Source of the DNA: a bacterium
GTDB taxonomy: Bacteria; CG2-30-53-67; CG2-30-70-394
DNA: 9,553 nucleotides
Direction of reading: 5' to 3'
Assembly: GCA_024278555.1 (NCBI GenBank)
Contig: JAJRSX010000052.1
Coordinates: 1-9,553 of the forward strand
Below the pieces are notes generated by a model, which was given only the letters and a program-made list of their open reading frames with translations, did no database searches and was not told the origin of the DNA. Made by a program: the position numbers and the translations under genes. Positions 3,408-3,732 of the stretch are shown here, piece by piece (within the stretch, counting starts at the first letter, position 1; every line of letters starts with the position of its first letter).

Positions 3408-3484
3408 CCGCTGACCGCTGACCGCTGACCGCTGACCGCTGACCGCTGACCGCTGACCGCTGACCGCTGACCGCTGACCGCTGA
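3408..3484 (+). repeat. Perfect 11 x 7-bp tandem array (CCGCTGA) abutting a start codon
   Basis: Eleven exact copies of CCGCTGA occupy 77 bases. The next bases are CC and then the ATG (3487) of the glutaredoxin-like gene, so the start codon sits in what looks like a decayed twelfth unit (CC-ATGA) and no SD is present. A 7-bp unit changes frame with each copy. On the plus strand every frame meets TGA within 21 bases, while the opposite strand reads open as a SAVSGQR heptapeptide. The perfect copies suggest active slippage or recent expansion. Confidence 0.95.
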
Positions 3485-3486
3485 CC

Positions 3487-3732
3487 ATGACCGTCACCCT
3501 CTTTCACACCGATGGCTGCCACCTGTGCGAGGAGGTGGAGGCGATCCTCCGCCGTCTCGCGGGTCGCTTTCGCTTCGACCTGGTGCGCGTCGATATCACC
3601 GGCGACGAGGCCGCCTACGCCCGGTATCGCACCGCCATCCCGGTGGTGTGGATCGACGGCGAGGAGGCGGCCCGCTACCCGGTGGACGAGGCGACCCTGG
3701 CGCGGCTCCTGGCGGCGCGGGGCGGGCGGTAG
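3487..3732 (+). CDS. Glutaredoxin-like thiol protein (DUF836 type)
   Basis: An 81-residue cytoplasmic thioredoxin-fold protein. It opens with a beta strand (VTLFHT) followed by the redox motif Cys11-His-Leu-Cys14 in DGCHLCEEV, then a helix, a strand LVRVDI, and the cis-proline loop AIPVVWIDG with Pro52. The GCHLCE motif and size fit the short glutaredoxin-like DUF836 family, not a classical glutaredoxin (CPYC) or thioredoxin (CGPC). A thiol-disulfide or metal-handling role is inferred; the substrate is unknown. The start is the only ATG at the right place, directly after an 11-copy heptamer repeat and without an SD, so expression may depend on that repeat. It lies 82 bp before the copA-type gene on the same strand, but a terminator-like hairpin separates them. 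Confidence 0.85.
   Translation: MTVTLFHTDGCHLCEEVEAILRRLAGRFRFDLVRVDITGDEAAYARYRTAIPVVWIDGEEAARYPVDEATLARLLAARGGR

Follow-up and report, generated by a model that had tools for sequence, protein, structure and literature searches.

A perfect heptamer array before a glutaredoxin-like gene as part of a dispersed intergenic element

The glutaredoxin-like locus and its array

The window, that is, the whole stretch of 9,553 nt that was analysed, belongs to a draft genome of 3.06 Mb in 211 contigs (G000) and contains, upstream of a gene for a glutaredoxin-like protein, eleven consecutive CCGCTGA units, all of them exact (Table 1). The resulting period-7 tract of 79 nt is far beyond chance, and the ATG occupies the three positions that follow it (3487-3489). 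To this extent the original prediction, which had described eleven exact units stopping two bases short of the ATG of a gene that lacks a Shine-Dalgarno (SD) sequence, is confirmed, as is its statement that the array is unreadable on the plus strand, where TGA interrupts every frame. The minus strand is open; the frames on it that run through the array (3220-3522) encode repeats of the SGQRSAV type and could be picked up by annotation pipelines, but as genes they are likely spurious. That the ATG lies within a decayed twelfth unit survives only as a possible reading (CC-ATGA); in a sister species (G001) the twelfth unit is CCGCTAC, followed by the ATG as CCGCTACGGATG.

The 81-residue product matches the Pfam family PF05768 with an E-value of 3.9e-18, residues 2-75 aligning with profile positions 1-76, and its orthologue in G001 is 78% identical. 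The earlier suggestion that the true start might lie elsewhere is refuted by this match, which begins at residue 2, and by the alignment of the homologues, in which the sister-species orthologue keeps the same ATG. A search for a sigma-70-like promoter or a terminator near the array found none, and Rfam returned zero matches for the window and five element loci.

Table 1. Coordinates of features in and around the heptamer element of the window.
Feature	Position	Strand	Remarks
Divergent upstream gene, 107 aa, no Pfam match	2796-3119	-	83% identical in sister species; synteny anchor
Degenerate inverted arm, TCAGCNN-type heptamers (NNGCTGA on the minus strand)	3191-3240	-	Faces divergent upstream gene; arm precedes core in most paralogous copies
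75-bp insertion (3273-3347), window copy only, with direct repeats GGTGGAG at 3266-3272 and 3341-3347	3266-3347	+	Relative to paralogues L025, L027, L029 and L030
Core of dispersed element, GGTGGAGAATGGGGGGTTGCGG..., with leader TTCGCTTGCTGAGAGGGGACGCAGTTT (3381-3407) at its end	3341-3407	+	From alignment of copies; sequence-model match 3342-3421, E 2e-21
Perfect CCGCTGA units, n=11	3408-3484	+	Pure period 7 to 3486
Glutaredoxin-like gene, DUF836, 81 aa	3487-3732	+	Pfam PF05768; start conserved in sister species
CopA-type heavy-metal P-type ATPase	3815-6223	+	Downstream of glutaredoxin-like gene

Other repeats are also present in the window. Its first 308 positions, at the start of the contig, hold 1.9 copies of a 160-bp unit at 98% identity, which may be a genuine tandem duplication or may stem from the edge of the assembly, and a palindromic sequence of the GTAGGAGCGAGCTCCCGCTCGCGATC... 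type, REP-like by eye, lies downstream of the enolase gene (347-455). A further dispersed repeat, of the TCTCTGCGC...TCTGCGCGAG type, occurs at 3273-3347, at 6241-6280 and at another locus (L199); the first of these copies is inserted within the heptamer element itself, between the GGTGGAG direct repeats.

Anatomy and history of the dispersed element

Arrays of three or more CCGCTGA units are found in the window and at ten further loci of G000. Alignment of these loci reveals a common leader, TTCGCTTGYTGAGAGGNGACGCTGTTT, immediately adjoining the array on its 5' side and preceded in turn by a G-rich core and, further 5', by degenerate heptamers of the TCAGC type in inverted orientation, so that the element runs from inverted NNGCTGA heptamers through a core of ~70 nt to units of CCGCTGA or CCGCTGT. 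These two units define subfamilies, each with its own variant of the core. A model comprising the core and two units retrieved about 35 copies from G000 at the threshold of E below 0.01, 18 of them at E < 1e-15. Within a 588-kb sample of this genome, GCTGA recurs at a period of 7 (n=54) or 14 (n=36), compared with 0-2 occurrences for each of the other periods from 5 to 16. Several of the G000 arrays, about 100-123 nt long, run into contig ends, and such long arrays may be collapsed, and their copy numbers are not reliable; the count for the window tract, which is internal and shorter at 79 nt, is more trustworthy, though not certain.

Since the core is common to many copies, the array is part of an element rather than a lone microsatellite, and the dispersed copies make the expanding or mobile repeat that the original prediction had offered as its alternative the better supported half of that prediction. 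Many dispersed copies of a short conserved core, inverted ends and species-specific expansion are also features of REP- and MITE-like elements, a likeness that lies in the sequence layout; unlike those elements, the present one has variable heptamer arrays as its ends. Insertion polymorphism is likewise observed, the element being found at fabD, coaD and kdtA in G000 and absent from the same places in G001, which belongs to the same genus and yields one strong match to the model. A search of six other genomes of the class found no convincing conserved core (best E 0.03).

The only array of three or more GCTGANN units in G001 is located at the orthologous glutaredoxin locus and is flanked there by the counterparts of the glutaredoxin-like gene and the divergent 107-aa gene. 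It contains 11 perfect CCGCTGA units, the pure tract measuring 88 nt versus 79 nt in the window, and ends as CCGCTACGG-ATG. The number of units is therefore the same in the two species compared, both of them represented by draft assemblies, and this equality corresponds, at species level, to the outcome that the original prediction had itself named as speaking against a regulatory role. The window and G001 copies have GACGCAGTTT in common, whereas GACGCTGTTT or a close variant stands in its place in the aligned G000 paralogues. The element at the glutaredoxin locus was therefore probably inherited from the common ancestor, before the species split. Its presence before fabD, coaD and kdtA in G000, and not in G001, indicates by the same kind of comparison that the element probably spread in the G000 lineage, with loss in G001 as the alternative.

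Elsewhere in the sister genome the heptamers are different. Sampling of 671 kb away from the glutaredoxin locus revealed no GCTGA pairs at period 7, and a period-7 GCTGA rule for G001 was rejected on this ground; the heptamers that are present in the sample include AGTAGAA, CCCCTAT and GGGGGAT. At nadE the ATG follows CCGCTGA units in G000, whereas in G001 TTTCTAC-type heptamers stand just before it and GTAGAAR heptamers, as an inverted arm, lie upstream (L327, near 3310). Judged from these orthologous slots, the 7-nt period persists at nadE while the unit differs between the sister species. No heptamer was seen at sucD and rplA in G001.

Position of the arrays relative to coding boundaries and translation starts

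The arrays are oriented with respect to their neighbours. In G000, the short GCTGANN-pair pattern GCTGANNGCTGA followed by an ATG within 30 nt gave 60 matches at about 45 loci, with 0 for the reversed control. Among arrays outside genes in the 588-kb sample, a start codon lies within 30 nt on the forward side in 11/30 and on the reverse side in 0/30; the stop codon of a convergent gene lies within the same distance in 7/30 and 1/30, respectively. Genes in the sampled stretches were called with a simple, crude gene finder, making the orientation counts approximate, and the G000 sample was partly picked for array-bearing contigs, which affects the number of arrays and not their orientation. Arrays of three GCTGANN units also occur in other genomes of the class, most of them in G003 (46 matches), the reversed control giving 0. 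In G003, 8 starts were found within 30 nt on the forward side and 0 on the reverse side, and an SD sequence is often seen by eye between array and start. At one G003 locus (L289) a heptamer array is placed immediately upstream of a stretch that by eye resembles a cobalamin riboswitch.

In other taxa the forward end of CCGCTGA arrays outside genes comes within 10 nt of a convergent stop codon in 18/74 and of a start in 1/74. In Pseudoalteromonas, several such arrays lie between a terminator-like hairpin and the end of the convergent gene. The Pseudoalteromonas arrays at L061, L064, L067, L089 and L118 comprise 8-17 units following terminator-like hairpins or T-rich sequence, and the other end of several of them is 3-6 nt from a convergent stop codon. 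With starts in G000 and G003 and convergent stops in other taxa, the general rule looks like one in which the outer end of the array is set against a coding boundary, starts being prominent in G000. A fixed phase of the unit at array ends across taxa was considered and rejected, the bias being modest only.

An SD-like 4-mer precedes 2/30 array genes in G000, versus 26/53 array-free genes whose start codon is the same in both G000 and G001, the control rate being near 0.2. Taken alone, these counts would suggest that the arrays replace SD sequences, but the SD-less orthologues in G001 counter this reading: inspection by eye finds no SD before fabD, coaD and kdtA of G001, which lack the element, nor before its nadE, sucD, rplA and glutaredoxin genes. 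The arrays thus lie, as far as the compared upstream sequences indicate, before starts that do not rely on an SD, and the array did not replace one. To describe the array as standing in place of a ribosome binding site, as had been done initially, is misleading.

Leaders made of pure array are predicted to fold weakly, with energies of -2.5 to -3.5 kcal/mol over 45 nt versus a mean of -10.9 for 372 genes, and the 79-nt window array alone is predicted at -6.9 with an empty centroid. For all 30 array genes, degenerate arrays included, the mean is -8.3 and the difference after correction for GC content about 2 kcal/mol. A self-folding array was rejected as a candidate, pure arrays being nearly unfolded in prediction. 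It is plausible that such an unstructured leader would be harmless, or slightly helpful, to initiation that does not depend on an SD.

The genes behind the arrays are housekeeping genes that have no common function. NCBIfam matches include fabD, dapF, rsmI, kdtA, coaD, NAD synthase (nadE), recF, dxr, tlyA, nuoL, nuoM, rplA and hydrogenase genes, together with pgsA, whose match is below the cut-off. This is no set for phase variation. As nuoL and nuoM, and also two hydrogenase genes, are close neighbours on the same strand, some arrays are probably located inside operons.

Interpretation and related repeat systems

On balance, the array is best read as the tail of a dispersed, heptamer-tailed element whose copy at this locus was inherited vertically, lies before an SD-less start and is probably passive or mildly favourable to initiation. 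The array is the right arm of this intergenic element, which probably spread in the lineage of G000. The element's tail of homogeneous CCGCTGA or CCGCTGT, whose outer end abuts a neighbouring coding boundary, would grow and shrink through 7-nt slippage or unequal exchange. At the glutaredoxin locus the tail fills the space before a start at which no SD is used. If transcribed, it would yield a 5' leader with almost no structure, which would be compatible with initiation independent of an SD and perhaps even favour it, so that a change in unit number may be expected to have little or only a graded effect. Two observations run counter to a wholly passive role: the 11 identical units in two species, despite a diverged spacer, could reflect selection over passive turnover, and the start-side orientation exceeds what is expected of inert filler.

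A different, possible but rather doubtful, explanation is that the arrays are sites for an RNA-binding translational regulator (of the S1, Csp or Csr type) that would recognise GCUGA every 7 nt just before starts across a regulon. The forward orientation and proximity to starts in G000 and the related G003, and the identity of the CCGCTGA unit in two species, agree with such a role. The layout is also that described for the TAACTGA repeats of marine Beggiatoaceae, which are mostly forward, most often end 1 nt before a start codon, rarely accompany an SD and follow no functional pattern, and for which an RNA-binding regulator of this kind was proposed (MacGregor 2015, PMC4679880). However, the two species differ in their unit at nadE, the CCGCTGA arrays of other taxa adjoin convergent stops more than starts, and the genes that bear arrays have no common function.

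The phase or level switch of the original prediction, in which slippage would alter the number of units and hence glutaredoxin expression, is not supported and we consider it quite unlikely. It draws on the perfect 7-bp repeats that stand immediately ahead of a start codon and on the hmw1A and hmw2A genes of H. influenzae, where 7-bp tandem repeats likewise lie upstream of the coding sequence. There they separate two promoters of an adhesin gene, and their copy number has a demonstrated effect; for hmw1A, more repeats result in lower transcript and protein (PMC8262952). The present arrays differ in that they precede housekeeping genes, have, at the glutaredoxin locus, equal copy number in two species and are known from sequence. 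Furthermore, the same arrays occur before essential genes, in which on/off switching would harm, the glutaredoxin-like gene does not encode a surface antigen, and gain or loss of 7 nt ahead of the ATG leaves the reading frame as it is.

Very little probability attaches to a plain microsatellite, a chance heptamer expanded locally and unconnected with any element: heptanucleotide repeats are widespread among bacteria and five-unit CCGCTGA arrays occur in many unrelated taxa, but the tract is preceded by the shared core as well as by inverted heptamers, and period 7 with GCTGA is dominant in G000. It is most improbable that a dedicated process, such as templated extension or a period-7 copying activity, lays or extends the arrays directionally up to coding boundaries, although, if true, this would mean that species can differ in the sequence of the unit, as they do at nadE, and still keep its polarity and its period of 7 nt.

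Compared with known systems, the heptamer-tailed element has its closest precedent in the Beggiatoaceae repeats, with which it shares perfect 7-nt direct repeats (11 units in the window), a mostly forward orientation a few nucleotides from starts, seen genome-wide in the counts above, the rarity of SD sequences, and genes of mixed function, essential ones included. The unit is not TAACTGA, however: the CCGCTGA, CCGCTGT or GCTGANN units have only CTGA in common with it, and the arrays are longer, homogeneous and joined to a dispersed core that carries heptamer arms in inverted orientation. Tandem heptamers that end in CTGA and occur in many genomic copies are also reported from Geobacter metallireducens, where the sites are mostly paired on opposite strands and class 3 consists of five MTYCTGA heptamers (PMC2700814); those are termed regulator sites, and no start-codon rule is stated for them, whereas here one arm is a long homogeneous array.

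These results bring a new lineage into the class of start-codon-proximal heptamer repeats, which has been little studied, and tie such repeats to a defined dispersed element. They also separate two matters that had been merged, as the arrays lie before SD-less starts and yet the array-free orthologues examined are SD-less too; such repeats need not substitute for ribosome binding sites. The different heptamers of the two sister species at nadE, and the arrays that adjoin stop codons in other taxa, suggest either that the sequence of the unit matters less than its period and position or that these two reflect how such arrays arise.
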